From assembly GCA_944327285.1 (NCBI GenBank), contig CALVHG010000003.1, forward strand, positions 29,110-93,109: a stretch of 64,000 bases of DNA. Reading direction: 5' to 3'. The notes under the pieces are model-generated. The model worked only from the letters and a program-made list of their open reading frames with translations. It searched no databases and had not been told where the DNA came from. Shown here one piece after another: positions 1,185 through 64,000 of the stretch; positions within the stretch are counted from its first letter, which is position 1, and the number at the start of each line of letters is the position of its first letter. This DNA is from an uncultured Desulfovibrio sp. Lineage in GTDB: Bacteria; Desulfobacterota; Desulfovibrionia; Desulfovibrionales; Desulfovibrionaceae. The translations under genes and the position numbers were made by a program.

Positions 1185-1332
1185 TAGAGCGTTTCAACCT
1201 TGAAAAAGGTGAAACGCGGGGCGGCAGCACAGCGCCGCCCGGCCCAAAGTGAGCGGAAAAAACGCGTTTTTTCCGCGAAACGACAGGGCGTATGGTTTGG
1301 AATGCAAAGCATTTCAAACTGAAATTGCTCTA
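1185..1332 (+). repeat. R1 element, full copy A
   Basis: This 148-bp intergenic element runs from TA-GAGCGTTTCA to TGAAATTGCTC-TA. It can fold into four hairpins: GCGTTTCA/TGAAACGC around a smaller stem, a GGCGGC/GCCGCC-type stem, a nearly loopless stem of GCGGAAAAAACG with its complement, and GAAATGC/GCATTTC near the end. Related copies occur at 3712, 6776, 23749, 30095, 33851, 35663, 41349, 41830, 62763 and 63926. It lies directly after the binding-protein stop codon. Confidence 0.9.
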
Positions 1333-1362
1333 ATAGAGCGGCTTTTGGGGAAGATGGGGGAG

Positions 1363-1494
1363 TTTGAGGGGGAAGAAGCTCCTTTTTGCCGCGAGCAGCG
1401 ACCCAACGGGCGGCCAAAGGCCGTGCTCGTCAGGCGACGCAGGAGCCTTACGGGCATCAACAGCAGAGCAAAGGGCTTTCTTCCCCCTCAAAAT
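1363..1494 (+). repeat. R2 element, copy 1
   Basis: This repeat is bounded by TTTGAGGGGGAAGAA and TTCTTCCCCCTCAAA, an inverted repeat at its ends. The interior has the shared block GGCCGTGCYCGTCAGGCGAC and CGGGCATC(A/G)ACAGCAGAGC. A close copy is at 35716-35843 and an inverted, more diverged copy at 23487-23634. It sits between R1 copy A and the hypE 3' end, so it may act as a transcript end for hypE. Confidence 0.8.
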
Positions 1495-1513
1495 ATACGA
1501 TTTTTGCTTGCTC

Positions 1514-2521
1514 TCAGCAAATCCGGGGGAGCTGTGCGCCTTCGAGCATGCCGAGCAGGCGCTGGCCGCCGATGGGGGTCGTAAGGCGGACTTGCGGCTT
1601 GCCTTCTTCCACGCGGCCGATGATGGCGGCCTCTCTGCCGTAGGGGCTTTTGCGCATGGCTTCGAGAGCTGCGTCGGCGTCGGCAGCGGGCAGGATGCAG
1701 ATGCATTTCCCCTCGTTGGCAAGATAGAGGGGGTCCAGTCCAAGAAAAGAGCAGCCGCTGCGCACGGATTCATGCACGGGGATGGCGCTTTCCTCAAGGA
1801 CGATGCTGACCTCGGACTGCTGGGCTATCTCGTTGAGCGTAGTCGCCAGACCGCCGCGCGTGGGATCGCGCAGAACGTGCACTTCTTCGACAGCATGCAG
1901 CACATTCTGCAGCATATTGTTGAGCGGCGCTGAATCGGACTGCACATCGGAAAGGAAGGAGAGTCCCTCGCGGTGCGCCATGATGGTAAGGCCATGATCG
2001 CCCATTGCCCCGCTGACGAGCACCACGTCGCCGGGCTTGGCGTTATGCCCGGAGGGAGCGGGATCGGCCGTGATAACGCCAATGCCGGTGGTATTGATGA
2101 AAATGCGGTCGCATGCGCCGCGCTGCACGACCTTGGTGTCGCCGGTGACAATCTGAACGCCCGCATGCTGCGCGGCTTCGGCCATGTCCTTGACGATGCG
2201 TTCCAGCGTTTCCACGGGCAGACCTTCCTCTATGATGAAGGCGCAGCTCAGGAAGCGGGGGCGGGCTCCCAGCATGGACACGTCGTTGACGGTGCCGTGA
2301 ACGGCCAGCGTGCCGATACTGCCGCCGGGAAAGAAAAGCGGGGTTACGGTATAGGAATCCGTGCTCATGGCAAGCGGCCCCTGCATATCCATTTCCAGCT
2401 GGGCGGCATCATCCATGCGATTCAGAATCGTATTGGAGAAATGACGCTGAAAGCAGTCGGCAATAAGGCGTTGCGATGCGCGGCCGCCGCTGCCCGCATC
2501 CAGCAGAATACAGTCTTCCAT
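1514..2521 (-). CDS. hypE: Hydrogenase maturation protein HypE
   Basis: HypE is an AIR-synthase/ThiL-like ATPase that dehydrates a thiocarbamoyl group on its own C-terminal cysteine to make the cyanide ligand of the [NiFe]-hydrogenase iron. The protein has 335 residues, the normal length, and ends in the diagnostic PRIC tail with the acceptor cysteine last. N-terminal LDAGSGGRASQRLI and the STDSYTVTPLFFPGG segment match the family. It lies 44 bp after hypD on the same strand, the usual hypDE pairing. Other hyp genes are not in the window. Confidence 0.97.
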   Translation of the reverse strand: MEDCILLDAGSGGRASQRLIADCFQRHFSNTILNRMDDAAQLEMDMQGPLAMSTDSYTVTPLFFPGGSIGTLAVHGTVNDVSMLGARPRFLSCAFIIEEGLPVETLERIVKDMAEAAQHAGVQIVTGDTKVVQRGACDRIFINTTGIGVITADPAPSGHNAKPGDVVLVSGAMGDHGLTIMAHREGLSFLSDVQSDSAPLNNMLQNVLHAVEEVHVLRDPTRGGLATTLNEIAQQSEVSIVLEESAIPVHESVRSGCSFLGLDPLYLANEGKCICILPAADADAALEAMRKSPYGREAAIIGRVEEGKPQVRLTTPIGGQRLLGMLEGAQLPRIC

Positions 2522-2565
2522 ATCGGATAAAATCCTTAAAGTGTTTCTTTAAAAAGAAGGATAAA

Positions 2566-3693
2566 TCAGGCAGGTATGCCATACTTGAAATAGGCGGCGC
2601 AACTGCCTTCCGTGGAAACCATACAGGGCCCCACGGGACTTGCCGGAGTGCAGACTTTGCCGAAAAGCGGGCATTGCGGCGGCGTGAGACGTCCACGCAG
2701 AACGTCGCCGCAGCGGCAGCCGGGCAGAGGAGGAACCTCCGGCAGGGTAATATTCAGACGCTGCGCTGCGTCGCGGTGGGTGTAGGCCGGGCGCAGTCCC
2801 AGACCGCTGAGGGGAATACGGCCTATGCCCCGCCAGAGGGCGTCGGCAGGCATGAAATATTCTTCGAGCAGCGAGCGGGCGCGCGGATTGCCCTCGTCGC
2901 CCACGGCGCGGGGATAGGCGTTGACAACGGCGGGCTTTTTGTCGCGAAGCTGCTCGGCCATGAGGCAGAGGGCAAGAAGGATATCGGCCGGTTCAAAGCC
3001 GCCGACAACGGCAGGGACGCCGTATTCTTCGGGCAGGAAAGCGTAGGGGGCCAGTCCCAGAATTGTGGAAACATGGCCGGGCAGGAGAAAGGCGTCTATG
3101 CCGCAGGCTGGAGCGTCGCCTGTCCGGGCGTCGTCCAGCAGGGCGCGCAGGGCAGGGGGAACCAGCTTGTGCAGGGAAAAGATGCAGAAGTTATCCAGCT
3201 TGCGCTGATCGGCCAGCATCAGGGTCGCGGCCACGGTCGGAGCCGTGGTCTCAAAGCCGATGGCAAGAAAGACCACGGTGGCGGACGGATTGGCGGCGGC
3301 CAGCGTCAGAGCATCCAGCGGCGAATAGACAATTTCAATACGCGCGCCCTGCGCCTGCGCATGCTTGAGAGTGTGTCCTCCGGGGCCGGGCACGCGCAGC
3401 AGATCGCCGAATGTGGCCAAAATAACGCCATCCCGGCCGGCCATGTCCAGAAAGGCGGCAACTTCGGCATCATGCGTCACGCAGACGGGACAGCCGGGAC
3501 CGGAAAGATGCTCCACGCCCGCGGGCAGGAGAGAACGCAGACCGCTGCGGAAGATGGAGACAGTATGCGTGCCGCACACTTCCATGAAGCGCATGCGCCT
3601 GCCGGGAATGTCGGAAAGCGCCTGCTCCAGTCGGGTCAGCAGGCGGCGGCAGAGTGCGGGGTCGGCAAAGCCGGCAAAGGGATGTTGACTCAT
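2566..3693 (-). CDS. hypD: Hydrogenase formation protein HypD
   Basis: HypD is the iron-sulfur scaffold on which the Fe(CN)2CO group of [NiFe]-hydrogenases is built, working with HypC and HypE. Seen here are the conserved CGTHT and GPGCPVC motifs in the first third and a cysteine-rich end (CRCGD, then QCPLFGKVC) that binds the 4Fe-4S cluster. The ATG at 3693 (MSQHPF), preceded by an AGGAAAA ribosome site, gives 375 residues, as expected. The open frame continues to 3840, but that extension is only a translation of R1 copy B and should not be annotated. Confidence 0.97.
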   Translation of the reverse strand: MSQHPFAGFADPALCRRLLTRLEQALSDIPGRRMRFMEVCGTHTVSIFRSGLRSLLPAGVEHLSGPGCPVCVTHDAEVAAFLDMAGRDGVILATFGDLLRVPGPGGHTLKHAQAQGARIEIVYSPLDALTLAAANPSATVVFLAIGFETTAPTVAATLMLADQRKLDNFCIFSLHKLVPPALRALLDDARTGDAPACGIDAFLLPGHVSTILGLAPYAFLPEEYGVPAVVGGFEPADILLALCLMAEQLRDKKPAVVNAYPRAVGDEGNPRARSLLEEYFMPADALWRGIGRIPLSGLGLRPAYTHRDAAQRLNITLPEVPPLPGCRCGDVLRGRLTPPQCPLFGKVCTPASPVGPCMVSTEGSCAAYFKYGIPA

Positions 3694-3711
3694 GGACGGA
3701 TTTTCCTGTTC

Positions 3712-3855
3712 TAGAGCAATTTCAGTTTGGAATGCTTCGCAGTTCAAACCACACGGCCTGTCTTTTGCGGAAAACGCTGTTTTTTCGCTCTGTTGGGGAC
3801 GGGCGGCGCTGTGCCGCCGCCTCGCTTTTACCTTTTTCAACGGTAAAACGCTCTA
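3712..3855 (-). repeat. R1 element, full copy B
   Basis: This copy is about 144 bp and is inverted relative to copy A. It begins TAGAGCAATTTCAGTTTG and ends AAAACGCTCTA, so TA again marks both edges. It sits 18 bp upstream of the hypD start codon, between argC and hypD. Its position could affect hypDE expression, either by ending argC transcripts or by supplying structure to the hypD leader. Confidence 0.9.
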
Positions 3856-3930
3856 TGTGCCGGGGAGTGTTTTGCGGAGACGACGCCGGGCGTCTTCTCC
3901 CGTGCTCCCGGAGACAAAGAAAGCGCGGGA

Positions 3931-3964
3931 GGGAAGAGGAAAACGCCGGCGTTTTCTTCTTCCC
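3931..3964 (-). terminator. Palindromic hairpin after argC
   Basis: Two 17-base arms (starting GGGAAGAGG and ending TTCTTCCC) are complementary except for one mismatch and meet without a spacer. The hairpin lies 21 bp past the argC stop. No clear U-tract follows, so it may protect the 3' end or pause transcription rather than act as a classical terminator. Confidence 0.5.
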
Positions 3965-3984
3965 TCTGTCGAAAACAGCGGTTG

Positions 3985-5043
3985 TTACGGCATCAGCGGC
4001 GCGCCTTCGAGCCCCGTTTCCACGGGCAGGCCGCACATGAGGTTGGCGTTGGCCAGCGCCTGCCCGGATGCGCCGCGGCAGAGATTGTCGATAGCCGACA
4101 CGATAATCAGGCGACGCGTCCGGGGATCGACCACAAGGCCGATATCGCAGAACATGGAGCCGCGCACATGGCGGGTTTCCGGCAGCTTGCCCTTGGGCAG
4201 CACGCGCACCCAGCGGCTGTTGCCCCAGGTTTCCATATAGGCTTCGTGGACAGCGTCCAGCGTGGTGTCCGACGCAAGCAGGCGCGTGTAGATGGTGGCC
4301 AGAATGCCGCGATTCATGGGGACAAGGTGCGGATTGAAGGAGACGGTGACATCCCGCCCGGCGACAAGAGAAACTTCCTGTTCGATTTCGGGCGTGTGGC
4401 GATGCTTGCCGAGACCGTAGGCCCGGAAGGTGTCGTTGACTTCGCAATACAGCGAGGTGACGACGGCCTTGCGTCCCGCGCCGGTTGTGCCGGATTTGGC
4501 GTCGATAACAATGCCGTCGGTGTCGATGAGGCCGTGCTTGAGCGCGGGGTACAGACCGAGGATGGACGCCGAGGGATAGCAGCCGGGATTGGCCACAAGC
4601 GAGGCGCGGGCGGCTTCGGCCGCGTAGAGTTCCGGCAGACCGTACACGGCGCGATGCAGGAGATGCTTGCGGGTATGCGGCACATACCATGCCTCATAGG
4701 TGTCGGCGTCGCGCAGGCGGAAGTCGGCGGAAAGGTCTACGACCTTTGTTCCGGCTTCCAGCAGGTCCGCGGCCATTTCCATAGCCTTGCCGTGGGGGAC
4801 GGCAAGAAAGACAACGTCGCAGTCCTGAGCGGCCGTCCGCGCGTTGAATTCGCTGATGACCACATCCGCGCCGGGGAGTTTTTCGAGGAAGGGGTAAAAA
4901 TCGCCGAGACGGCGGCCCGCTTCCGCGCGGGAGCAGGCCACGGTAAGGCGCATGCGGGGATGCGTTGCCAGCAGCCGCGCCAGTTCCATGCCTGTGTAGC
5001 CTGTGATGCCTACGAGGCCTACGTTGATGCTGCGTTCTTCCAT
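3985..5043 (-). CDS. argC: N-acetyl-gamma-glutamyl-phosphate reductase
   Basis: ArgC reduces N-acetylglutamyl-5-phosphate to the semialdehyde with NADPH in arginine synthesis. The N-terminal Rossmann motif GITGYTGMELARLL, the catalytic cysteine motif NPGCYPSA and the HRHTPEI histidine motif are all visible. The start at 5043 (MEERSIN) has an AGGAA site seven bases upstream; an ATG at 5067 is in frame but lacks a good ribosome site. With the chosen start the protein has 352 residues. It follows the DUF1844 gene closely and is probably cotranscribed with it. Confidence 0.96.
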   Translation of the reverse strand: MEERSINVGLVGITGYTGMELARLLATHPRMRLTVACSRAEAGRRLGDFYPFLEKLPGADVVISEFNARTAAQDCDVVFLAVPHGKAMEMAADLLEAGTKVVDLSADFRLRDADTYEAWYVPHTRKHLLHRAVYGLPELYAAEAARASLVANPGCYPSASILGLYPALKHGLIDTDGIVIDAKSGTTGAGRKAVVTSLYCEVNDTFRAYGLGKHRHTPEIEQEVSLVAGRDVTVSFNPHLVPMNRGILATIYTRLLASDTTLDAVHEAYMETWGNSRWVRVLPKGKLPETRHVRGSMFCDIGLVVDPRTRRLIIVSAIDNLCRGASGQALANANLMCGLPVETGLEGAPLMP

Positions 5044-5081
5044 GCGTTCCTTTCCTTTTGTGCTCATGTTCCGAAATCGAA

Positions 5082-5375
5082 CTATTTTTGCGTGCAGCAG
5101 TCGTTATTGCCGCAGCGGATGACGTACTTCATGCGCAGTTCGTACAGGATGCTGTCGAGGAGCTGACTTTCCTGCCGATCCAGATTGTTGCTTGTTTTCT
5201 GACGCAGCATTTCCAGAATGTCGATGCTGTGGCGCGCCATGCAGGGGTCCGTGCCGGTGGCGCCGGTTTCCGGGTTGGGCACTTCGCCCAGTTGCACCAG
5301 CGCGGAGGAGGCCAGCGAGATGATAAAGGTGGAGAAGGTGACTTCCGGCATGCCCGAAGGCTGGCTTTGACTCAT
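5082..5375 (-). CDS. DUF1844 domain protein
   Basis: This 97-residue protein matches the DUF1844 pattern: PEVTFSTFIISLASSALVQLGEVPNP near the start, then a helical part with IDILEMLRQKT and LLDSILYELRMKYV. No enzymatic motif is present and the family's function is unknown. It ends with a cysteine-bearing tail (CGNNDCCTQK). A GGAGA site precedes the ATG. It lies between the aminotransferase and argC; a terminator-like hairpin separates it from the former. Confidence 0.88.
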   Translation of the reverse strand: MSQSQPSGMPEVTFSTFIISLASSALVQLGEVPNPETGATGTDPCMARHSIDILEMLRQKTSNNLDRQESQLLDSILYELRMKYVIRCGNNDCCTQK

Positions 5376-5390
5376 AGCGGTGTTCTCCGT

Positions 5391-5414
5391 AAAAAAGCGC
5401 GGCGGCCGCCGCGC
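5391..5414 (-). terminator. Rho-independent terminator after the aminotransferase gene
   Basis: On the minus strand a nine-base stem, GCGCGGCGG with CCGCCGCGC, is followed by six T. It lies about 45 bp after the aminotransferase stop and only 16 bp before the DUF1844 start codon, leaving no room for a separate promoter. DUF1844-argC would therefore depend on read-through or on a promoter inside the aminotransferase gene. Confidence 0.75.
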
Positions 5415-5459
5415 CGGGGCCGGTTATGGCTTCGGCGCGGGGCCGCCCGCGTTGCAGTC

Positions 5460-6644
5460 TCAGGCGTGCGTCAGGGGCAGGGGCGTGCCGGGAGCGACGG
5501 CAAGCGCGGCATGATAGCCGGCAAGGCCCTGTTCGAGATAGTCGCGCGAGCCGCTGTGTCCGCCCGCTTCCTGAAGCGAGGCGGCCAGCGCGTGCAGGCC
5601 CGCCAGCACATCGGCCCAGTCCACCCAGCCCATGTGGCCGATACGGACAATGCGGCCCTTGAGATGATCCTGCCCTCCCGCCATATAGACGCCGTAGCGC
5701 TCGGCGGCAAGGCGCACAACTTCGTTGCCGTCCACCCCGGCGGGCAGGCGCACGCTGGTAATGCCCCAGGCAAAGTTCTGCGGCGCGAAAAGCTCCAGTC
5801 CCAGCGCCGCCACGCCGGTGCGCGTCAGCATGGTGAGCGCCCATTGCTTGCGGAAGACTGGCTCAAGACCGTTTTCGAGCAGCAGCTTCAGGCTTTCTTC
5901 CAGGCCCACAATAAGGCTGACGGGCGAGGTAAAGAGGGTTTGTCCCTTTTCCACGTTGGCCCGTTCCTTGGGCAGATTAAAGTAGAAGCAGCCGGAAGCG
6001 GTGGCTTCCGCTTTGCTCCAGGCCCGCGGCGAAAGCGCCAGCAGGGCCAGACCGGGCGGCAGCATGAGCCCTTTCTGGGAACCGGTAAGCAGGCAGTCCA
6101 CCCCCCATTCGTCCATGGGACAGGGCGAGAGGCCCACGCCGGAAATGCCGTCCACAACCAGCAGCACGTCTCTGGAACGCGTCAGCTGCGCGAGAGCTTC
6201 CACCGGATGAAGAACGCCGGTTGAGGTTTCGGAAAGTTGAACGAGCACGCCCCGGATGGCCGGATCGGCGTCCAGCGCCTGCCGGACGGCTTCGGGCGTT
6301 ACCGCCTGCCCCCACGGCACTTCGATGGATACGGTCGTCAGACCGCGCTGCTCGGCAATGGCGCGCCAGCGCTGACCAAATTTGCCGCCTTCGATGACAA
6401 GAACTTTTTCTCCCGGCGTAAAGAGACCGTGCACCGCGGCCGTCATGGCTCCCGTTCCCGAACAGGACAGAGGCAGAACCGGGCCCTGAGTGCCGAACAG
6501 GATGCGCAGCTGTTCCTGCACGCGGTGCATGATGGCTTTGAATTCGCTTTTGCGATGATGGATCATGTCATGGGCAAGCGCCAGACGAACACGTTCCGGC
6601 AACGGCGTGGGGCCGGGGGTCAGCAGACGGACTTTATTAAGCAT
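5460..6644 (-). CDS. PLP-dependent class-V aminotransferase (alanine/serine-glyoxylate type)
   Basis: The 394-residue protein belongs to the aminotransferase class-V family that includes alanine-glyoxylate and serine-pyruvate transaminases. It starts with the family motif LTPGPTPLPERV, has a phosphate-binding stretch SCSGTGAMTAA, the cofactor aspartate in VVDGISGVG and the Schiff-base lysine in TGSQKGLMLPPG. Desulfovibrio homologues are often labelled as a soluble hydrogenase subunit, a name that does not reflect the sequence. The amino donor and acceptor cannot be assigned. It is in front of DUF1844-argC but separated by a terminator. Confidence 0.9.
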   Translation of the reverse strand: MLNKVRLLTPGPTPLPERVRLALAHDMIHHRKSEFKAIMHRVQEQLRILFGTQGPVLPLSCSGTGAMTAAVHGLFTPGEKVLVIEGGKFGQRWRAIAEQRGLTTVSIEVPWGQAVTPEAVRQALDADPAIRGVLVQLSETSTGVLHPVEALAQLTRSRDVLLVVDGISGVGLSPCPMDEWGVDCLLTGSQKGLMLPPGLALLALSPRAWSKAEATASGCFYFNLPKERANVEKGQTLFTSPVSLIVGLEESLKLLLENGLEPVFRKQWALTMLTRTGVAALGLELFAPQNFAWGITSVRLPAGVDGNEVVRLAAERYGVYMAGGQDHLKGRIVRIGHMGWVDWADVLAGLHALAASLQEAGGHSGSRDYLEQGLAGYHAALAVAPGTPLPLTHA

Positions 6645-6775: not shown

Positions 6776-6868
6776 TAGAGCGTTTCGCCTTTGAAAAAGG
6801 TGAAAGGCCAGGCGGCGGCACAGCGCCGCCCGGCTCGAAGCGAGCGGAAAAACCGCGTTTTTCCGCAG
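6776..6868 (+). repeat. R1 element, copy C, 3' part missing
   Basis: The copy starts TTAGAGCGTTTCGCC and follows the R1 consensus through the third hairpin (GCGGAAAAACCGCG), then stops where an R3-type sequence begins. The end hairpin and right terminal repeat are missing. The fusion with R3 suggests a deletion or an insertion of one repeat into another. Confidence 0.8.
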
Positions 6869-8110: not shown

Positions 8111-8132
8111 GAAGTGTTCCTTACAGGTGTTG

Positions 8133-9581
8133 TTACTGCTCAAGCTTGCGGAGGAGCTGATCTTTGACGTTTTCCTTGCCGGGAACGGCTTTGGCCTCGA
8201 TCCAGCGGCCGAGCCGGTCGGTATCCATCAGATCGATGACCCGTATACCTTTATCTTCGCGCAGACGGAGCTCAAGCGTGCCGGGAGTGAGCAGCGTCGT
8301 GCGCAGAGCTTCGGCCAGCTGTTTGTTGCTCTCGCCGGGAAGTGCGGCGGGAATCTGAACCGCCAGCATGTCTACCATCTGGGAGATGGCTTCTTTGTTG
8401 TTAATGAGTATGGTCAGCAGCAGGGCGATACCGCCTTTGTCTTCATACCGCAGGTATGCCTTTTTGAACTGCGCGTCGAGCAGAGTCTGAATATCGTCGC
8501 CTTCAAGAGAGCGTCCGGCGACGTTGATATTGTGTTCCAGATCGATCTCAAGACGCCCTGCGTCGGCAATATCGATGGTGCCCTTATCGCGAAACAGTTC
8601 CCCCTGCTGTACGTGCTCTCCCTCTGAATTGATTCGCAGCCGTTGCAGACCGGGGGCGGAATGTATCGGAATCTCCAGTTGTTCGACACGGCTGATGGTA
8701 TGCAGGGGATTATTGCTGCGCCAGTCGAGGAAGAGACGCCGACACGCGATTGTCGTACCGTTGGAGACGAATGTGCCGTTTTCCAGCGTCATGGTCCGGT
8801 AGAGAGGCGGATTCGTCGTGAACAGGGTTTGTTCAATGTCTTCAGCGGAAATGGTTTGGGCGAACATCTTCCGGGCGAGAGTTGCCGGAACGGCAATATC
8901 CGTCAGCCGCAGCGAGCCGCTTATGCGCTGCTCCGCGTCGTCAATGATGAATTGCTTTGCCTCCATAAGAGCGGCCTGGGTTCCCACGACGCTGTCGTCC
9001 AGCGTGAGGGCTTCCATGCTTATGGGCATCGACATTGTCGACCGCAGACGCAGTTGCGAGATTTCGATGCGCCCGGCTCCGGCTTTTCCCACAAAGTCCG
9101 GCAGGGCTGGGGCGCCCCTGTTTTCCAGCAGTTCGGCAAACAGATCGGCATCCAGATAGGCATTGGAGATGGTCAGCGTTTTCAGCGTGACTTCATCCGT
9201 TGCGAATTGTCCTGAAGGCGCGAGTCCCAGCGTTATGTCCCGCGCGGTAGCGTCGCCCAGAACAACAGGACCGGATGTCGGCAGCAGGAATTGCAGAGAG
9301 GGAACGCCCCCTGCCAGCATCAGGGAAAACGTGGGACGCAGAACCAGTTCGCGGTAGCTTTGTTCGCCCCTGTCCCCGCTGAGGCGCAGGTTGGAGATGC
9401 TGATGGTGCGTTGCAGGAGCGAGACGCGCACGTCGTCGCACTGGACCTGCAATCCTGCGGCAGGTTTGTTGATGCTTTCCCGGATACGGTTTTCGAGCAT
9501 TTGCGAAACGACAAGATTGCCGCCGATGCCGCCGATAGCCAGTATGCCGATGGCAATGCCTGCGATGGCTGCTTTTTTCAT
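8133..9581 (-). CDS. AsmA-like membrane-anchored protein, paralogue 1 of 3
   Basis: The 482-residue protein begins with a membrane anchor (MKKAAIAGIAIGILAIGGIGG) and then a beta-rich exported part. The segment DDVRVSLLQRTISISNLRLSG recalls the first strands of AsmA/TamB-type proteins, and the C-terminal LRYEDKGGIA and TPGTLELRLRE pattern recurs in envelope proteins with that architecture; this is my reading, not a search result. It shares the SLLQRT block, PTSGPVVLGD and the C-terminal VPGKENVKDQLLR with the two following paralogues. A strong GGAGA ribosome site is present. Function is unknown; a role in envelope lipid handling is only a hypothesis. Confidence 0.75.
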   Translation of the reverse strand: MKKAAIAGIAIGILAIGGIGGNLVVSQMLENRIRESINKPAAGLQVQCDDVRVSLLQRTISISNLRLSGDRGEQSYRELVLRPTFSLMLAGGVPSLQFLLPTSGPVVLGDATARDITLGLAPSGQFATDEVTLKTLTISNAYLDADLFAELLENRGAPALPDFVGKAGAGRIEISQLRLRSTMSMPISMEALTLDDSVVGTQAALMEAKQFIIDDAEQRISGSLRLTDIAVPATLARKMFAQTISAEDIEQTLFTTNPPLYRTMTLENGTFVSNGTTIACRRLFLDWRSNNPLHTISRVEQLEIPIHSAPGLQRLRINSEGEHVQQGELFRDKGTIDIADAGRLEIDLEHNINVAGRSLEGDDIQTLLDAQFKKAYLRYEDKGGIALLLTILINNKEAISQMVDMLAVQIPAALPGESNKQLAEALRTTLLTPGTLELRLREDKGIRVIDLMDTDRLGRWIEAKAVPGKENVKDQLLRKLEQ

Positions 9582-9621
9582 GGTGTCTCCTTGAGCGGGG
9601 GAGAGGGATTTGCGCGGCGTT

Positions 9622-11106
9622 TTACTGCGCCTGCACGCGAAGAATCTGATCCTTGACGTTTTCCTTGCCGGGAACGGCGGAAGCCTCGATCTTGCGTCCG
9701 ATATTCTCGATGTCGGTCAGGTCGAGCACCGTCATCCCCATGCCGTCGCGCAGGCGGAGTTCCAGCGTGCCGGGGGTAATCAGCATTGTGTGCAGAGCTT
9801 CGACCAGCGGCCTGTTGGTTTCGCCGGGGAGCGCCGCGGGAATCTGGGCCGCCAGCATGTCCACCTGGGGAAGCGCCTGCTTGTTGGGAATAACCGTGGC
9901 CAGCATCCGGGCGATGCCGCCCTTGTCTTCATAGCGCAGACTGCCCTTCTTGATCTGTGCGCCGAGCAGAGACAGAGCGTTCGTCTCCTCAAGAGACAGC
10001 CGGGAGGCATTAATATTGTGCTCCATATCCATATCGAAGTGACCAATCCCGGCAACGTCAAGGCTGACCTTGTCCCGGAACACGTCAAAGTCAAAGCTGG
10101 CCATGTCGCCCTGCTGCATATGTTCCCCGGTTCCATTGATAAGCAGCCGCTTGAGTCCGGGAATTCTCAGCCGCCCGGTTGCGGGAATATCCAGCTGCTC
10201 GATGCTGACGATGGAATGCAAAGGGGTATTGCTGCGCCAGTCGTGGGAGAGTCGCCGATATTCGACGGTCATGTGGTTGGCGAATATCGTGCCATCTTCC
10301 AGCGTCATGGTCCGGTAGAGAGGCTGCTCCGTTCTCGTAAGGACCTGTTCAAGCTCGTTGGGCGTGAGGGCATTGGACAGGAGGATTCGGGCAAGCCTCG
10401 GAGGAACAGCAATATCCGTCAGACGCAGGAGCGCGCCGCGCACACCTGCGTTTTGCTTCGTATCGATAATCTCAAACTTTTTTACCTCGACAAGGCCGGC
10501 CTTAGTGCCGACGACAATATCCCCCAGCGCGAGGCTTTCCACGGTTACGGGGTCGGACTCTGCCGCCTGCAGCCGCAGCTGCGTGGCCTCAATGCGACTG
10601 GCGCCGGCTTTTTCTATAAGGTCCTGCACAGTCGGCTTGACTTTTTTTTGCAGCAACTCGGCAAACAGAGCGGCATCCAGATAGGCATCGGAGATGGACA
10701 GCGTTTTCAGCGTGCCTTCCGCCGGTGCGGCATCTTTGAAAGGAGCGGAATGCAGGCGCACATCCTGCGCGGTCATATCGCCCAGCGTAAGAGGACCGGA
10801 CGTCGGCAGCAGAGAGTGCAGGGAGGGAATGCTCCCTGCCAGCATCAGGGAAAAGGAGGGGCGCAGCACCAGTTCGCGGCAGCTATGCTCCCCCTCAGGC
10901 CCGTTGAGCCGCAGGTTGGAGAGGCTGACCGTGCGTTGCAGGAGCGAGACGCGCACGTTGTCGCACTGTGCCTGTATCCCGGAAGGAGGATTGGCGAAGC
11001 TGTCCCGGATGCGGTTTTCGAGCATCTGCGAAACAACAAAATTACCGCCGATGCCGCCGATGGCCAGCGCGCCGATAACGATTCCTGTGATGGCTGCCTT
11101 TTTCAT
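9622..11106 (-). CDS. AsmA-like membrane-anchored protein, paralogue 2 of 3
   Basis: This 494-residue paralogue has the same plan: anchor MKKAAITGIVIGALAIGGIGG, then NVRVSLLQRTVSLSNLRLNG, PTSGPLTLGD, LRYEDKGGIARML, TPGTLELRLRD and VPGKENVKDQILR near the end. It is visibly closer to paralogue 1 than to paralogue 3, suggesting the most recent duplication was between 1 and 2. It is 40 bp upstream of paralogue 1 and preceded by a GGAGATACC ribosome site. No catalytic motif was recognised. The conserved blocks lie at both ends with a divergent middle. Confidence 0.75.
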   Translation of the reverse strand: MKKAAITGIVIGALAIGGIGGNFVVSQMLENRIRDSFANPPSGIQAQCDNVRVSLLQRTVSLSNLRLNGPEGEHSCRELVLRPSFSLMLAGSIPSLHSLLPTSGPLTLGDMTAQDVRLHSAPFKDAAPAEGTLKTLSISDAYLDAALFAELLQKKVKPTVQDLIEKAGASRIEATQLRLQAAESDPVTVESLALGDIVVGTKAGLVEVKKFEIIDTKQNAGVRGALLRLTDIAVPPRLARILLSNALTPNELEQVLTRTEQPLYRTMTLEDGTIFANHMTVEYRRLSHDWRSNTPLHSIVSIEQLDIPATGRLRIPGLKRLLINGTGEHMQQGDMASFDFDVFRDKVSLDVAGIGHFDMDMEHNINASRLSLEETNALSLLGAQIKKGSLRYEDKGGIARMLATVIPNKQALPQVDMLAAQIPAALPGETNRPLVEALHTMLITPGTLELRLRDGMGMTVLDLTDIENIGRKIEASAVPGKENVKDQILRVQAQ

Positions 11107-11137
11107 GGTATCTCCTTTTATGATAAGGGGCCGGTTT

Positions 11138-12652
11138 TTATTGAGTCTGCAGACGGCGAATTTGATCCGCGACGGTTTCCTTGCCGGGAACGGCGGAAAC
11201 TTCGATTTTGCGTCCGATCCTGTCGATGTCCGCCAGAAGTTCGGGCACTGTTATTTTCATGCCTTCCCGCAGACGGACGTCCAGGGTGCCGGGGGTGCGC
11301 AGGGTCGTGCGCAGGGCTTCGATCAGCGGTTTATTGGCTTCATCGGGAAGCAGCGCGGAAAGTTGCGCCGTCAGCATGTCGAGCTGGCGGAGAGATTCTG
11401 TCGGGTGTTCTTGTCCGGCCAGTATCCGGGCGATACCGCCTCTGTCTTCGTAGCGCATGCAGGCCTTTTTGAATTGCGCGCCGAGCAGAGTCTGCAGATC
11501 GGCATCCGGAGACAGAATATCCGCGTCCGCAGTATATTCCAGATCGGCTGTTATATGCCCCATGTCGTCGACAGCAAGGGAGACGTTTTCCCTGGACAGG
11601 TTGTTGTTCCGGGTATGCTCCCAGGTGCAATCAAGAAACAGTTTGTCCATGCCCGTGATATTCGGCAGCTCGCCGAACAACAGGAGCGGCGGAATGTACA
11701 GGCGTTCTATTTGCAGAACGCCTTTTCGCATATCCGGGGCAACTTCCGAAAATACGCGTTTGACCCTGCAAGGGGTGGGATCGCCATAGGCAAAGGAGAG
11801 CGTGCCGTTCTCCAGTGCCACATTGCGGTAGAGTGTATGTTTTGCCGCCGCGTTTGCAATTGCCCGTTCCAGACCGGCAGGGAAAAACGGCATGTCGGCA
11901 ATAACTGTTTCCAGAATGTTTGGCGGGATGGCGATATCCGTCAGGCGCAGAAGCGAGCAGCTTTTGTTCATGCCTTCCGACGCGTCCGCAATGCTGAATT
12001 CTTCGGCTTCACAAAGCGCTATGCTGAAGTCCGTGAGGACATCGTTCAGGCGGAGTTTTTTTATTTCCAGACCGCAAAGATTCGGCTGTCGCAGACATAG
12101 GGATGTGGCGGCGATGCGGGCGGCCCCCGCCCGTCCGACAAGGTCCTGAAAGGCGATTTTTTCTCCGTTCAGAAGTTTGCTGAGGAGAGAGGCGTCCAGC
12201 TGCATATCGAGAAAGGACAGCGCCGCCGCGCCGGTTTCGAGACGGGATGTCGGTCCCCCCGGCGTCAGGGGGGCTATTTCCCGAATGACGTGCCCCGTAA
12301 TGTCCTGTGCTTCCACAGCGCCCAGGATGACAGGGCCGGACGTCGGCAGGAGGGAGCGCAGGGGAGGAAGGGCGGTTGCCAGCATCAGGGAAAAGGCAGG
12401 GCGCAGCGTCAGTTCGCGGCAACGCTGCACGCCTTTCCCGCCGCTGAGGCGCAGATTGGAAATGGTAACGGTGCGTTGCAGGAGCGAGATGCGAACGTCG
12501 TCGCATGCCGCCCGGTCATAGCCAGGCAGGGCAAACCGGGCTATCTCGTCGCGGATGCGTTGTTCGGCGCTGTTCAAAAAAGCAAGGCCGCCTCCAATAC
12601 CGCCGAAAGCCAGGATACCGATGACGATACCCGCAACAACGCCTTTTTTCAT
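11138..12652 (-). CDS. AsmA-like membrane-anchored protein, paralogue 3 of 3
   Basis: The most divergent of the three (504 residues) starts MKKGVVAGIVIGILAFGGIGG and retains DDVRISLLQRTVTISNLRLSG, PTSGPVILGA, MRYEDRGGIARIL, TPGTLDVRLRE and VPGKETVADQIRRLQ. It contains extra cysteines in the middle (for example RLTDIA preceded by NKSCSLL) absent from the other two. Its ATG overlaps the TGA of the DUF1992 gene (ATGA), so translation is probably coupled, and a GGAGGAAAGG site precedes it. It opens the triplet in transcription order. Function is unknown. Confidence 0.75.
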   Translation of the reverse strand: MKKGVVAGIVIGILAFGGIGGGLAFLNSAEQRIRDEIARFALPGYDRAACDDVRISLLQRTVTISNLRLSGGKGVQRCRELTLRPAFSLMLATALPPLRSLLPTSGPVILGAVEAQDITGHVIREIAPLTPGGPTSRLETGAAALSFLDMQLDASLLSKLLNGEKIAFQDLVGRAGAARIAATSLCLRQPNLCGLEIKKLRLNDVLTDFSIALCEAEEFSIADASEGMNKSCSLLRLTDIAIPPNILETVIADMPFFPAGLERAIANAAAKHTLYRNVALENGTLSFAYGDPTPCRVKRVFSEVAPDMRKGVLQIERLYIPPLLLFGELPNITGMDKLFLDCTWEHTRNNNLSRENVSLAVDDMGHITADLEYTADADILSPDADLQTLLGAQFKKACMRYEDRGGIARILAGQEHPTESLRQLDMLTAQLSALLPDEANKPLIEALRTTLRTPGTLDVRLREGMKITVPELLADIDRIGRKIEVSAVPGKETVADQIRRLQTQ

Positions 12653-23748: not shown

Positions 23749-23807
23749 TAAAGCGTTTTAGCTTTGAAAAAGAGAAAGCGCGAGGCGGCACAGCGCCGCT
23801 TAGAGCA
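23749..23807 (+). repeat. R1 element, shortened copy D
   Basis: The copy begins TAAAGCGTTTTAGCTTTG and includes the GGCGGC/GCCGC stem, then ends in TTAGAGCA. The third and fourth hairpins are missing. It lies next to the gdhA terminator, in a gap of about 400 bp between convergent genes that also holds R2 and an R3 fragment. Confidence 0.65.
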
Positions 23808-30025: not shown

Positions 30026-30094
30026 GAATATTCCTTAAAGTGATGGTTTAATAGTGCGCTGCCGACAGACGTTTCCGACCGTTGAGCCGACAGG

Positions 30095-30204
30095 AGGGCA
30101 ACGCCGCCACCCGGCCCAAAATGAGCGGAAAAACCGCGTTTTTTTCGCGAAACGACAGGCCGTATAGTTTGAAATGCGAAGCATTTCAAACTGAAAATGC
30201 TCTA
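30095..30204 (+). repeat. R1 element, copy E, 5' part degenerate
   Basis: From about CGCCGCCACCCGGCCCAAAA to the end ACTGAAAATGCTCTA the copy matches R1, including the third and fourth hairpins. The first hairpin is degenerate (30069-30095). The last TA is part of the TAG stop codon of the FmdB-type gene on the minus strand. It fills the hemC-FmdB gap. Confidence 0.8.
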
Positions 30205-33850: not shown

Positions 33851-33998
33851 TAGAGCGTTTTACCTTTGAAGAAGGATAAACGTGAGGCGGCGACAGCGCC
33901 GCCCCGGCCCAAAGTGCGCGGAAAAAACGTGTTTTTCCGCGAAACGACAGGCCGTATAGTTTGAAGCGCACACAGCGTTTCAAACTGAAAATGCTCTA
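33851..33998 (+). repeat. R1 element, full copy F
   Basis: This is a 148-bp copy from TA-GAGCGTTTTACC to AAAATGCTC-TA, with all four hairpins. The fourth stem has changed to GTTTGAAGCGC with a GCGTTTCAAAC arm and still pairs almost fully. It follows the DUF89-like gene by 119 bp, in the same direction. Confidence 0.92.
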
Positions 33999-35705: not shown

Positions 35706-35715
35706 GGCAGAAGTG

Positions 35716-35843
35716 TTTGAGGGGGAAGAAACCCCTTTTTGCCACGAGCAGCGACCCAGCGGGCGGCCGCAGGCCGTGCCCGTCAGGCGACAGCCTTACG
35801 GGCATCGACAGCAGAGCAAAGGAATTTCTTCCCCCTCAAAAAA
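35716..35843 (+). repeat. R2 element, copy 3
   Basis: This is the closest relative of R2 copy 1: ends TTTGAGGGGGAAGAAACC and TTTCTTCCCCCTCAAA, core GGCCGCAGGCCGTGCCCGTC and ACGGGCATCGACAGCAGAGC. It lies 17 bp past the lysC stop and could end lysC transcripts. Confidence 0.8.
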
Positions 35844-41348: not shown

Positions 41349-41496
41349 TAAAGCGTTTCAACTTTGAAAAAGGTGAAACGCGAGGCGGCGGTACAGCGTC
41401 ACCCGGCCCAAAGTGAGCGGAAAAAATGCGTTTTTTCCGCGAAACGACAGGCCGTATGGTTTGAAATGCGCAGCGTTTCAAACTGAAAATGCTCTA
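41349..41496 (+). repeat. R1 element, full copy G
   Basis: A 148-bp copy from TA-AAGCGTTTCAACTTTG to ACTGAAAATGCTC-TA. The left end has A in place of the first G of GAGC. The palindrome of the third hairpin is intact. It is the left partner of a same-direction pair with copy H. Confidence 0.92.
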
Positions 41497-41829: not shown

Positions 41830-41978
41830 TTAAAGCGTTTCACCTTTGAAAAAGATGCAACACGAGGCGGCAGCACAGCGCCGCCCGGTCAAAATTGAGC
41901 GAAAAAACAACGCTTTTTCTGCGAAACGGCAGGCCGTATAGTTTGAAAGGCAGCGCGTTTCAAACTGAAAATGCTCTA
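41830..41978 (+). repeat. R1 element, full copy H
   Basis: The copy runs from TA-AAGCGTTTCACC to ACTGAAAATGCTC-TA with more substitutions than copy G, for example in the third hairpin (GAGCGAAAAAACAACGC). The right end and TA are intact. It lies 90 bp past the rhomboid stop. Confidence 0.88.
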
Positions 41979-52514: not shown

Positions 52515-53315
52515 ATGCCGAACTTGAAACGACCGCCCCATGCCAGGCGCGTTCGCAGCATCTCAAAAAGCGCCGTCGAAAAGGAACCGTCCGCCACTAT
52601 GGGCCAGCGTCTCAATAAGGCCATTGCCGCGGCGGGTTTCTGTTCCCGGCGCAAGGCCGACGAGCTTATTTTTGCCGGGCATGTTGTGGTTAATGGACAG
52701 GAAGAAAGAAATCCTGCCCGCCAGGTACAGCCCGAAGATCAAATTTGTGTCGACGGGCATTGTCTGGAGCGGAAACAGCCCTTTTTGTATTACCTGTTCC
52801 ACAAACCTGTGCAGGTTGTCTGTACGCTGCATGACCCGCAGGGGCGGGCCACGGTTCTTTCGCTCCTGCCGGATGAAGCGCGGAAAGCGCGGGTGTATCC
52901 TGTTGGCAGACTTGATTATTTTTCCGAGGGTGCGCTTCTTCTAACAAACGACGGCCAGTGGGCCAACCGGCTCATGCATCCGCGGCATCACGTCCCTAAG
53001 GAATATGAGGTGATTGTGCGGGGGCAGGTAACGGCCTCGTTTCTGGAACAGGTCCGCCGGGGCATGCGTCTTTCAGACGGTACTCCCCTACTCCCTGCGG
53101 AAATCGAAGCCCGCCCCTTGCGGGAGGGTGACAGAAGCCTGCTGCGCATTGTGCTGCATCAGGGCATCAATCGTCAGATCAGACGCATGTGCGCTGACGG
53201 CGGATTGACCATCTTACGCCTGCGGCGTGTACGCATCGGGCATCTGGCTCTGGGGACGCTGCCCAGCGGAAAACTGCGTCCCCTGACGGAACAGGAAATA
53301 GCTCGGTTCGCATAG
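52515..53315 (+). CDS. RsuA/RluB-family pseudouridine synthase
   Basis: The protein has an N-terminal S4 RNA-binding domain (QRLNKAIAAAGFCSRRKADELIFAGHVVVNG) and a catalytic domain with the active aspartate in VGRLDYFSEGALLLTNDG, and ends with the family pattern HQGINRQIRRMCADGG. It should modify a uridine in rRNA (16S or 23S; RluB-like is likeliest). The 266 residues include a basic start of about 30 residues. AAGGAG precedes the ATG. Its 3' end is duplicated directly downstream. Confidence 0.93.
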   Translation: MPNLKRPPHARRVRSISKSAVEKEPSATMGQRLNKAIAAAGFCSRRKADELIFAGHVVVNGQEERNPARQVQPEDQICVDGHCLERKQPFLYYLFHKPVQVVCTLHDPQGRATVLSLLPDEARKARVYPVGRLDYFSEGALLLTNDGQWANRLMHPRHHVPKEYEVIVRGQVTASFLEQVRRGMRLSDGTPLLPAEIEARPLREGDRSLLRIVLHQGINRQIRRMCADGGLTILRLRRVRIGHLALGTLPSGKLRPLTEQEIARFA

Positions 53316-53555
53316 AGATTTTTTCTTGAGGGGAGGGAACTCCCCTCTTTTTCTTTTCCGATTTTGTTTTTCCCATATGAAACGAATTTTTTGCTCCTCA
53401 AATCGTCCATTTTAAGCCTTTAAAAAGAATGTCCGCGAGTGTTTTCCTTTGTGAGAAGGCTTTTTGCGTCTTGGAGCATTTTGAGGCGATTTTTGAGGAT
53501 AGAAAGATTTTTTCTGTTATTTTTAAAATTTTGCTTTAAATAAAAATGAACTGCG
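53083..53555 (+). repeat. Tandem duplication unit, copy 1 (gene 3' end plus downstream DNA)
   Basis: This 473-bp unit includes the last 77 codons of the pseudouridine synthase and 240 bp of AT-rich downstream sequence with the block TTTTAAGCCTTTAAAAAG and GTCCGCGAGTGTTTTCCTT. It is repeated immediately at 53556 with matching order. Confidence 0.9.
53328..53355 (+). terminator. Terminator after the pseudouridine synthase
   Basis: GAGGGGAG pairs with CTCCCCTC around GGAA and is followed by TTTTTCTTTT. Confidence 0.85.
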
Positions 53556-54043
53556 CTCCCCTACTCCCTGCGGAAATCGAAGCCCGCCCCTTGCGGGAGG
53601 GTGACAGAAGCCTGCTGCGCATTGTGCTGCATCAGGGCATCAATCGTCAGATCAGACGCATGTGCGCTGACGGCGGTCTGACCATCCTGCGTCTGCGACG
53701 TGTACGCATCGGGCATCTAGCTCTGGGAACGTTGCCCAGCGGAAAACTGCGTCCCCTGACGGAGTAGGACATTGCCCGGTTCGCATAAAAAATTTTTGTC
53801 TTGAGGGGGAAAGAAATTCCCCTTTTTTTCTTCGTCGATCTTATTCTTCCTATGTGAGGTGAAATTTTTCACTCCTCGAATCGTCCATTTTAAGCCTTTA
53901 AAAAGATCGTCCGCGAGTGTTTTTTCCTTTGTGAGACGGCTTTTTGCGTCTTGGAGCATTTTGAGGCGATTTTGAAAGATGGAAAGATTTTTTTGCTATT
54001 TTTTTTAAGGTATAGCTTTAAAAAATAGTAGAAAAATTAACTC
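53556..54043 (+). pseudogene. Decayed duplicate of the pseudouridine synthase 3' end
   Basis: Copy 2 of the tandem unit starts exactly 473 bp after copy 1 and runs to about 54043. Its coding part (53556-53767 in frame) is nearly identical for about 70 codons but has a TAG in place of a CAG near the end and other changes, and it lacks the S4 domain, catalytic aspartate and a ribosome site. The downstream AT-rich part, including a terminator, is also kept with more differences. It cannot make an active enzyme. Confidence 0.88.
53806..53829 (+). terminator. Terminator in the duplicated unit
   Basis: GGGGAA and TTCCCC pair around AGAAA, followed by seven T. It corresponds in place to the terminator at 53328 although the sequence has changed. 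Confidence 0.7.
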
Positions 54044-58023: not shown

Positions 58024-58032
58024 GCAAAAAGA

Positions 58033-58069: not shown

Positions 58070-58078
58070 GGGAATGTC

Positions 58079-61780
<3,702 letters not shown>

Positions 61781-61846
61781 TCCCTCAGCCCTTTGTAGTC
61801 TCGTTGGCGGGAGATACCCGCCCTGCCCGTTTTCCGGGCCATGCGC

Positions 61847-62650
61847 TCAGCGTGTCTGATCCAGGCGCAGGCTGCCGCCGTGGAGAATGCGCTCGCGTCC
61901 GTCGCAGACAAGACAAAGGCCGCCGTCAGGGGCCAGGCCCTCAAGGCGGCCGCGCGTTTCCTCGCGGCCATCGTCCACGATGACGTTGCAATGTCGCCAC
62001 AACAGCAGCCGTTCGGCTTCCTCACGCCAGTGCGCTGCAAAAAAGCGTTCCTTAGTATATGCGGAAAGCAGATGTTTTACAAGCCGACGCCACAGACTCT
62101 CGGCTGTGGGCACAGCGTTCTTTTCCGCGATCAGACGCGCCAGACACGTTGCGGGCATGGCGGCGTCCCGGCGCATGTCTTCTTCGCCCGGACAGAACAA
62201 TATATTGATGCCGATGCCCGCAAGCAGGCAGTCGCCCCGCTCTTCCAGCAGCAGTCCCGCAAGTTTGAAAACCTGCCCGCCGTGCGACACGACAATGTCG
62301 TTGGGCCATTTCAGCGCCGTGTCCCAACCCAGCGCCCGCAGGCCCAGCGCCAGCAGCAGCCCGCAGACAACGCTGCCCTCGGACCCGCTGAACGGCGCTT
62401 CCTGCGGCAGGCGCAGGGCCGCGTACAAATTGCCGGGCGGCGAATACCAGCGGCGGCGCAGCTGCCCCCTGCCCTGCCGCTGAGCAATGACCTGCACGCT
62501 TTCCCAGGGGGCCAGCCGCCCCTGAGCGGCAAGGCGGATGGCGCTGTCGAGGCAGGAATCCACTTCGCCCAGACGCCAGACAGCAGGGGCGTCCAGAGCC
62601 AGGGCGCTTGGCATCCGGGGGGTACTTGGATAACAATAAGAATCAATCAT
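61847..62650 (-). CDS. birA: Biotin-[acetyl-CoA-carboxylase] ligase (no HTH domain)
   Basis: BirA activates biotin with ATP and attaches it to carrier lysines. Visible are the biotin-binding QGRGQLRRRWYSPPGNLY and KWPND motifs and GIGINI. No N-terminal DNA-binding domain is present, so it is not itself a repressor. ATG 62650 with AGGGA upstream gives 267 residues; the frame extends to 62725 through R3 sequence and should not be used. Pyc in the same unit is the obvious substrate. Confidence 0.93.
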   Translation of the reverse strand: MIDSYCYPSTPRMPSALALDAPAVWRLGEVDSCLDSAIRLAAQGRLAPWESVQVIAQRQGRGQLRRRWYSPPGNLYAALRLPQEAPFSGSEGSVVCGLLLALGLRALGWDTALKWPNDIVVSHGGQVFKLAGLLLEERGDCLLAGIGINILFCPGEEDMRRDAAMPATCLARLIAEKNAVPTAESLWRRLVKHLLSAYTKERFFAAHWREEAERLLLWRHCNVIVDDGREETRGRLEGLAPDGGLCLVCDGRERILHGGSLRLDQTR

Positions 62651-62676
62651 GGTCTTTCCCTTAGGGTTTGGTAACA

Positions 62677-62740
62677 CTTCCCCAGCGCGTTTTTTCAGGG
62701 GGAAGCGGGAGCATGCTGTACGCATGCCTCAATGGGCATG
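62677..62740 (-). repeat. R3 partial copy upstream of birA
   Basis: Read on the minus strand this shows GCATGCGTACAGCATGCTCCC and CCTGAAAAAACGCGCTGGGG, the first half of R3 as near hemC, including the CATGCCCATTGAGGCATG hairpin. The large 20-bp stem is missing. It sits between birA and cca, which are divergent. Confidence 0.7.
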
Positions 62741-62762
62741 AAGGCAAGACACTCTAGAATAC

Positions 62763-62799
62763 TAAAGCGTTTTAGCTTTGAAAAAGGTGCAACGCTCTA
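62763..62799 (+). repeat. R1 mini-element in the cca leader
   Basis: A 37-bp derivative of R1, TA-AAGCGTTTTAGC at the left and GTGCAACGCTC-TA at the right, keeps only the first hairpin and both TA edges. It ends three bases before the ribosome site of cca. Confidence 0.7.
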
Positions 62800-62811
62800 G
62801 CCGGAGAACAA

Positions 62812-63918
62812 ATGAGCATTTATCTTGTGGGCGGCGCGGTGCGGGATCTGCTGCTGGGACGCCGTCCTGGCGATCTGGATTTTGCCTTTTCCGGCAGTCT
62901 GGAGTCCTTTGCGGCGTCGCACGCCGGGGCGCGGGCCGTGGGCGTGAGCGTGAGCGTCTGCCTCTGGCGCGGGCGCGAATATATGCCGCTGCATGACAAT
63001 TCGCTGGAGCGCGATCTTGCCGCGCGCGATCTGACCATTAACGCGCTGGCTCTGGAAGAAAACGGACGTCTGCACTGTCATCCGCAGGCTCTGCGGGATC
63101 TGCGGGACGGCATTTTGCGCCCTGCCTCTCCCTCGGTTTTTCTGGACGATCCCCTTCGGGTTTTTCGCGTCGCCCGCTTTGCGGCCGCGCTGCCCCGCTT
63201 TCAACTTGCCGACGAGTGCGCGGAACTTATGCGCGCCGTGCCGGACGACGCCCTGCGGAGCATCCCCTCGGAGCGTGTGGGCCGTGAGCTGCTCAAGGCG
63301 CTGGCAGCGCCGACGCCCGGTCGTTTTCTTAAAGTATTGGATGAAACTTTTTGTCTGCGTATCTGGTTCCCCGAACTGAGCGCGGCATCCGCCGTGCCTG
63401 CCGGGCCTCTGCCCTGGCATGCGGACAGCGTGCTGGAGCATCTGGCTGCGGTCATGGATGCCGTGCAGGGCGATCCGCTGGCTGTATGGATGGCCTTATG
63501 CCATGATCTCGGCAAGCTGAGCACGCCGACAGAGGAGTTGCCGCATCATTACGGCCATGAAAAACGGGGCATTCTGCCAGCCGTCAAACTCGCGCGGCGG
63601 CTGCGACTGCCGCGTATCTATCAGCAGGCGGGGGCCCTCGCTGCCGAGGAGCACATGCGGGCGGGTCTGCTGTTGTCCATGCGCCCCGGAAGTCAGCGGG
63701 ATGTCCTGTGGCGCGTGCATCGCTCCGGCCTTCACGACTCCTTCTGGCGTATGGTGGACGCTGACGGGGGACGTCCGCTTTCTGCCGAGGCGACGCGCCG
63801 CGTGGCCCTGCTTCAGGAGATACATTTGCCGCCGGAGTGGCGCGACCGGGGGCGCAGTTCGGAAGTCAGACTTCGCGAAATGCACTGCGCCGCCCTGTCC
63901 GCCCTGCGGGAAAAATAA
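62812..63918 (+). CDS. cca: CCA tRNA nucleotidyltransferase / polynucleotide adenylyltransferase family
   Basis: The enzyme adds or repairs the CCA end of tRNAs. The nucleotidyltransferase motif YLVGGAVRDLLLGRRPGDLDF, RDLTINALA and LRVFRVARFAA are present, and an HD domain (LCHDLGKLSTP) follows, as in bacterial Cca with phosphatase activity. Because at least one tRNA here encodes its CCA, a repair role is possible. The protein has 368 residues; GGAG precedes the ATG. It is followed by R1 copy J. Confidence 0.92.
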   Translation: MSIYLVGGAVRDLLLGRRPGDLDFAFSGSLESFAASHAGARAVGVSVSVCLWRGREYMPLHDNSLERDLAARDLTINALALEENGRLHCHPQALRDLRDGILRPASPSVFLDDPLRVFRVARFAAALPRFQLADECAELMRAVPDDALRSIPSERVGRELLKALAAPTPGRFLKVLDETFCLRIWFPELSAASAVPAGPLPWHADSVLEHLAAVMDAVQGDPLAVWMALCHDLGKLSTPTEELPHHYGHEKRGILPAVKLARRLRLPRIYQQAGALAAEEHMRAGLLLSMRPGSQRDVLWRVHRSGLHDSFWRMVDADGGRPLSAEATRRVALLQEIHLPPEWRDRGRSSEVRLREMHCAALSALREK

Positions 63919-63925
63919 CGGACGC

Positions 63926-64000
63926 TAGAGCGTTTCAACTTTGAAAAAGGTGAAACGCGAGGCGGCGGCACAGCGCCGCCCGGCCCAAAGTGAGCGGAAA
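63926..64000 (+). repeat. R1 element, copy J, cut by the window end
   Basis: The copy begins TA-GAGCGTTTCAACTTTG eight bases past the cca stop and matches R1 through the start of the third hairpin, where the window ends. Confidence 0.9.

Follow-up and report, generated by a model that had tools for sequence, protein, structure and literature searches.

R1, a very probable non-autonomous IS630-family element with a conserved interior fold in Desulfovibrionaceae

In the passages cited here, RUP, the repeat unit of pneumococcus, is described as an intergenic element of ~107 bp present in ~110 copies, with TA ends and a TA target, whose inverted repeats resemble those of an IS630 element of the same host, IS630-Spn1 (PMC2229807, PMC3049150), and which follows the coding bias, with 60.9% on the leading strand (PMC3049150). 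The same source describes the Correia/NEMIS repeats of Neisseria, TA-ended miniature inverted-repeat transposable elements (MITEs) of ~107 and 155 bp whose transcripts fold and are cleaved by RNase III, and ERIC/IRU, small repeats with TA ends that bear on transcript stability according to their orientation (PMC2229807). REP/BIME, with their RAYT transposases, are described as high-copy extragenic palindromes (PMC2817692). Here we report on R1, a 148-bp repeat found in a 64,000-nucleotide stretch of an uncultured Desulfovibrio sp. (the window, G000:C3:29110-93109, where G000 is a 3.33-Mb draft genome of 179 contigs). R1 is very probably a non-autonomous IS630-family element, that is a MITE, moved by an IS630 transposase made elsewhere in the cell.

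Compared by properties only, R1 is like RUP, as those passages present it, in being TA-ended and intergenic, in having IS630-like ends in its host and in following the coding bias; as RUP also shows this bias, the orientation bias of R1 is not unique. Unlike RUP, R1 is 148 bp long, belongs to Desulfovibrionaceae, reaches a higher copy number, has a fold kept by covariation across genera and has ends that rebuild stop codons; the cited passages on RUP hold no such fold or stop-codon rule (PMC2229807, PMC3049150). By description only, R1 has an IS630 partner where the cited text names none for Correia/NEMIS, and it shares small size and TA ends with ERIC/IRU in different hosts. It is unlike REP/BIME in its terminal inverted repeats, TA duplication and IS630 partner (no search for RAYT genes was made). 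R1 is apparently undescribed as a family: an earlier reading of the window from sequence alone (the sequence-only reading) knew of no published description, and we found none among the records listed from the open-access literature on Desulfovibrio repeats, structured RNAs, IS630 elements and MITEs. What sets R1 apart is the conservation of its interior fold across genera. Bacterial MITEs are known to fold; among those records we found no account of a MITE interior fold kept by compensatory change over several genera.

Copies of R1 in the window and beyond

The sequence-only reading had proposed a dense family with eleven places in the window. BLAST with an R1 consensus (E 1e-4) matched ten of them, starting at 1185, 3712 (minus strand), 6776, 23749, 30105, 33851, 41349, 41831 (corrected from 41830), 62763 and 63926; at the eleventh, 35663, the consensus match did not reach this threshold. 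Five of the copies are complete, each bounded by TA on both sides, as had been claimed for every complete copy. They lie at 1185..1332 (plus strand, 92.6% to the consensus, 107.5 bits with the fold model presented below), 3712..3855 (minus, 68.4 bits), 33851..33998 (plus, matched by BLAST and the fold model), 41349..41496 (plus, 110.5 bits), which we use as the reference for anatomy, and 41831..41978 (plus, 83.3 bits). The remaining five, all on the plus strand, are a copy without its right end (6776..6866, 38.7 bits), a remnant consisting of hairpin H1 and part of H2 (23749..23799), a copy without its left end (30105..30204; fold model 30093-30193, 89.3 bits), a 37-bp mini-form with H1 alone and TA at both edges (62763..62799) and a copy cut by the window end (63926..64000, 100% to the consensus over 75 bases). 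Mini-forms of 28, 37 and 51 bp, each a single terminal hairpin with TA at both edges, were observed at 62763-62799, L166:12715-12751, L170:4457-4507 and L188:3305-3355, and are possibly deletions between inverted repeats.

The observation of R1 is confirmed, and the family is much larger than the window shows. The 3.33-Mb genome contains the exact 21-mer of the right end, TTTCAAACTGAAAWTGCTCTA, 231 times (reversed control, 0), which bears out the dense family of the sequence-only reading; the 21-mer is also found in 3 of 60 relatives (153, 93 and 1 times). Its sole match in G029 (L034:1494-1521) is no copy of R1: the site is a small perfect palindrome, AGAGCAATTTCAAACTGAAATTGCTCT, with another hairpin next to it. 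Our detailed sample comprised 1.08 Mb, 0.50 Mb from G000 and 0.58 Mb from the relative G022, the latter in stretches chosen partly for carrying copies. It held 333 R1 matches (E 1e-4), of which 174 are near full length and 159 are not; together they cover 3.1% (G000) and 3.9% (G022) of the sampled bases. The unit length is 148 bp in 200 of 390 element rows, which count both strands. R1 is non-coding, with an interior that folds and contains no transposase part. Among the matches listed from a pattern scan (at least 80) are metagenome-assembled genomes of Desulfovibrio and Desulfovibrionaceae, including Candidatus Desulfovibrio intestinigallinarum and Ca. D. gallistercoris. Within the genus, 20 of the 79 genomes searched at the DNA level matched R1 or its core; for 7 of them (G004, G007, G034, G062, G089, G090 and G100) the match covers the inner part, or the inner part plus the right end, only. 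The plasmid collection and the GenBank phage collection gave no R1 match.

Insertion at TA and an IS630 element with matching ends

Empty sites were sought by joining the flanks of an element around one TA and searching them against the fetched DNA. This gave 44 rows, many of them representing one element on both strands, and cases with diverged or R1-derived flanks were left uncounted. At least seven loci have an uninterrupted counterpart showing a single TA. Four are insertions in G022 at places empty in G000 (L107 vs L172, L208 twice vs L125, L211 vs L161), one has its empty site in G065 (L215 vs L121), and two are G000 insertions into other repeats (L024 vs L174, L075 and L187; L175:7990 vs L173, L171 and L163). 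Stricter criteria left 6 of 86 elements, of which 3 had TA. Alignments of the window's flanks with relatives made the absence of R1 visible and gave no exact junction: the copy at 33851..33998 is absent from the corresponding place in G022, G020 and G065, where the flanks are too diverged. Insertions outside stop codons lie at YTAR in 42 of 58 cases, compared with 854 of 7014 intergenic TA sites (odds ratio 19), in a test that took only copies aligned over all 148 positions, a choice that itself favours intact TA ends.

Nine genomes were searched for DDE_3 (PF13358) and DDE_Tnp_1 (PF01609) transposases, and the 30 loci obtained were scanned for R1-like ends. Matching ends on both sides of the gene were present at two, both of the IS630 type. 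L057, in the genome of the window, is 993 bp long, has TAGAGC…GCTCTA ends and contains an open frame of 326 codons (311 aa from the first ATG). Its 311-aa protein passes the IS630 model NF033545 (193.2 bits, cut-off 100), matches PF13358 (116.2 bits, cut-off 28.6) and shows a weak PDB match to the Sleeping Beauty transposase (E 8e-8). L056, in G022, is 995 bp long with a broken transposase frame. The imperfect terminal inverted repeats that had been read from the window are common to R1 and both insertion sequences (ISs): in the reference copy, the left repeat (41349..41369, plus strand) has a family consensus identical to the L056 left end over 21 bases, and the right repeat (41476..41496, plus strand) ends in GCTCTA. 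Further pieces of this IS type occur in G022, G065 and G020, several at contig ends. Matches to PF13358 and PF01609 in G000 lie on contigs C4, C140, C61 and C64 and none on C3, so the earlier statement that the window has no transposase stands for these two families, the ones searched genome-wide.

Collectively, the TA edges, the single-TA empty sites and an IS630 element with matching ends in the same genome support the IS630-type, TA-duplicating insertion proposed by the sequence-only reading. We infer that an enzyme of the L057 type moves R1. The transposase would recognise the imperfect TAGAGC...GCTCTA ends, move the 148-bp unit and insert it at TA, preferably within YTAR, with duplication of the TA.

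An interior fold kept by paired changes

The interior of R1 is a conserved fold and not a transposase remnant. In the reference copy (plus strand), fold analysis places hairpins H1 at 41353..41381, H2 at 41384..41403, H3 at 41417..41440 and H4 at 41459..41483, with covariation for H2, H3 and H4. These are the four hairpins of the sequence-only reading, which had also held that stem changes stay mostly paired; compensation indeed exceeds shuffled and slid controls on most measures. A fifth helix not listed in that reading, H5 (41404..41454), pairs 41404-41408 with 41450-41454 around H3 and an internal loop with a 2-bp helix. Its arms are CGGCC/GGCCG in R1 and CGCGC/GCGCG in other elements.

Among 103 diverged copies, 122 stem cells were double-changed, compared with 54 ± 10 in shuffled and 23–42 in slid versions; counted by pair, 17 carried changes on both sides, no better than the slid versions (10–19). 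A structure-free alignment of 17 sequences had double changes in 19 of 34 pairs, with 71 cells (shuffled, 22.6 ± 3.3; slid, at most 15) and further pair types no higher than in shuffles. With 59 model-aligned sequences, an alignment that leans to structure, 24 of 34 pairs and 173 cells were double-changed (shuffled, 42.8 ± 6.0). Searches with the inner part led to elements with the same hairpin order and new sequences. Those in G034, G019, G012 and G157 have TAGAGC left ends and other hairpins, and those in G007, G089, G090, G100 and G062 have no TAGAGC ends and an H1 that differs by locus, paired in all 6 checked; four further elements have no good H1. The fold model, with up to 11 candidates scored per genome, matches 36 of 348 genomes of the order; they belong to 6 of 59 genera, and none lies outside the family of the window. 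These counts include four genomes with E values of 7e-5 to 1e-3 (G079, G081, G029 and G189), the last of which is the sole and weak support for genus g32. Across several genera of this family, paired changes have preserved the fold.

Paired changes can also arise without selection on a fold, through quasi-palindrome correction (copying between the two arms of a hairpin during replication). This explanation is rather unlikely. It would fit two observations: across the family, G.T and A.C mismatches occur about equally often (38 and 42) and are few against the 173 double-changed cells, and whole H1 hairpins differ in block between subfamilies and are still paired. However, the helix order, the 3' strand of the internal loop and H5, with ~40 bases between its arms, are also kept, and arm copying alone leaves the kept loops unexplained.

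Our guess is that the element itself benefits from the fold, whether through DNA that forms hairpins or through a structured segment of host transcripts that makes insertions tolerable. More broadly, and tentatively, Desulfovibrionaceae may harbour a mobile non-coding module, with R1 as one of its lineages, whose IS630-type ends enclose a fold maintained by selection in its own right, as a tolerance-giving RNA or as single-stranded DNA hairpins used by the element. Such a fold would outlast wholesale hairpin swaps and in some species survive without mobile ends, which would make R1 a mobile structured nucleic acid and not dead transposon scrap.

Stop codons, gene orientation and competing explanations

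Of the gene 3' ends facing a full copy, 44 of 176 coincide with the first three bases of the element, and when partial copies are included 68 genes end on its TAG position, 66 of them with TAG. Eleven of the 68 have filled homologues only and 32 have no usable homologue. Among the other 25, whose homologue was not scored filled, 21 end at the same codon; after setting aside 3 of the 21, whose homologues run on into R1-like sequence, 22 genes have a homologue that is clearly unfilled, and 18 of them share its end codon, some homologues being only 36–60% identical. The homologues of the 18 end in TAA or TAG (13) or TGA (5). Because 18 of 22 genes keep their end codon, we conclude that the element entered stop codons and rebuilt them, as it can do because each of its ends begins with TAG. 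TAs in stop codons are hit at 5 times the rate of intergenic TAs, an excess that falls to 1.7 times when matched for YTAR (p 0.09) and to 0.9 times among CTAG. Special targeting of stop codons is therefore rejected, the YTAR preference accounting for most of the excess, and target preference together with harmlessness suffices for their use. When the TA of a TAA or TAG stop is the target, insertion restores the stop and the protein keeps its length, as the homologue comparison shows; together with a presumed loss of insertions inside genes, such safe stops would lead to hundreds of copies in gaps and stop codons. In two species (L355 in G089, L362 in G090), the stop codon of an apparent leuC forms the edge of a fold copy that lacks TAGAGC ends, with a leuD-like gene next; both gene names come from a reading of the proteins only.

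Gene context was assessed with two gene callers, the second home-made (841 genes, coding fraction 0.77), and neighbouring copies are not independent. Between same-direction genes of the second caller, 76 full copies run along the genes and 36 against them (p 2e-4), and all matches give 131 to 59. Of the full copies, 112 lie in same-direction, 32 in convergent and 12 in divergent gaps, the divergent gaps making up 47 of 209 kb of intergenic DNA. Orientation by replication strand was rejected: in same-direction pairs from the first caller, 120 of 167 copies match the genes vs 92 of 167 the GC skew, whose sign is matched by 108 of 170 full copies. With the second caller no full copy (0 of 174) overlaps a gene by >60 bases, which may partly reflect gene splitting at the element, and 10 of 174 overlap a gene of the first caller by >50 bases. 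In IMG/VR a single contig matched (L296, 6360 b). Its two R1 copies (1582-1730 and 5983-6130) are set among phage tail genes and both run in gene direction, all 4 proteins tested match tail or baseplate families, and the TAG of the first copy is the stop codon of the preceding baseplate-hub gene.

The orientation of R1 along genes is among the points for reading it mainly as a structured RNA kept by the host (an operon spacer, 3' end or small RNA) and dispersed, with mobility secondary. We consider this improbable. It would agree with a fold conserved across genera, and with the copies in G007, G089, G090 and G100 that have no TAGAGC ends, and with two sets of neighbouring genes common to different species. 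Mismatches give it a further hint, since in 295 distinct copies G.T outnumbers A.C (378 vs 238), with a ratio of 1.74 in sense vs 1.02 in antisense copies (permutation one-sided p 0.016, Fisher 0.029, Mann-Whitney 0.075). The hint of strand-specific RNA selection is not repeated family-wide, where the two mismatches are equal and G.T accounts for 38 of 1989 paired cells, compared with 30 of 431 in 19 tRNAs (tRNA A.C could not be counted, as only standard pairs are drawn); mismatch counts do not favour long-term selection on an RNA strand. Moreover, 21 elements of other species or subfamilies have no common gene neighbourhood and no orientation bias (8 same, 7 opposite), Rfam gave 0 matches in the window and, for 8 loci of R1 or its relatives, best four matches all far below gathering, and R1 behaves like a parasite in its copy numbers, its TA edges and its empty sites.

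Several observations weigh against the IS630 explanation itself. Two of the seven clean empty sites lie in other repeats and not at orthologous loci, and at orthologous sites filled in G000 but empty in G022 the sequence is TG (L018 vs L197) or a short deletion (L171:9852 vs L194), not TA. No transposition was observed. The right ends of R1 and the IS share TAGAGC and differ further in, agreeing less well than the left ends. The interiors are unrelated, which rules out R1 as a simple internal deletion of the IS and leaves the origin of its interior unexplained. Finally, 16 of the 20 genomes matching R1 or its core have no transposase relative at E 1e-20; many of the 20 are draft assemblies, and pieces of the IS occur at the ends of contigs. 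A separate 138-bp element, L147:59-196 (G000:C159), is a true internal deletion of the IS630, comprising its left end and ~112 right-end bases in which the transposase gene begins, and related pieces occur in G000, G020 and G097. The existence of such derivatives indicates that the IS does yield small relatives.

The scarcity of close IS630 relatives in R1-carrying genomes would suit a different TA-inserting transposase as the mover of R1, which we nevertheless hold to be very improbable, as an IS630 with matching ends is present in the same genome. In the two families searched (PF13358 and PF01609), the IS5-type transposases (PF01609) were rejected as a source, matching ends there belonging to nearby R1 copies or standing alone and none framing the gene. 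That R1 represents vertically inherited, REP/BIME-like intergenic palindromes without defined edges is hardly credible despite its many remnants (the 159 of 333 matches not near full length), given sharp TA edges, copies in a phage contig and single-TA empty sites between G000 and G022 that already contradict it.

The window contains other repeats. A second intergenic family (1362-1493 and 35715-35841) is 91–94% identical over 77 and 50 bases, and similar G-rich/C-rich stretches flank many R1 copies elsewhere. A 257-base direct repeat (53083-53339 and 53556-53812, 91% identical) is followed by further repeated stretches, and three adjacent paralogous genes of ~1.5 kb each occupy 8131-12652 on the minus strand.

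For the biology of these bacteria, R1 offers a simple rule by which hundreds of copies can be carried in a gene-dense genome: prefer YTAR, start with TAG, and use stop codons, which TAG-initial ends make harmless, as safe landing sites. It also provides hundreds of natural replicates for asking what selects on the interior of a MITE. At 3–4% of the sampled sequence, R1 will mislead the annotation of intergenic regions, terminators and small RNAs in these bacteria.

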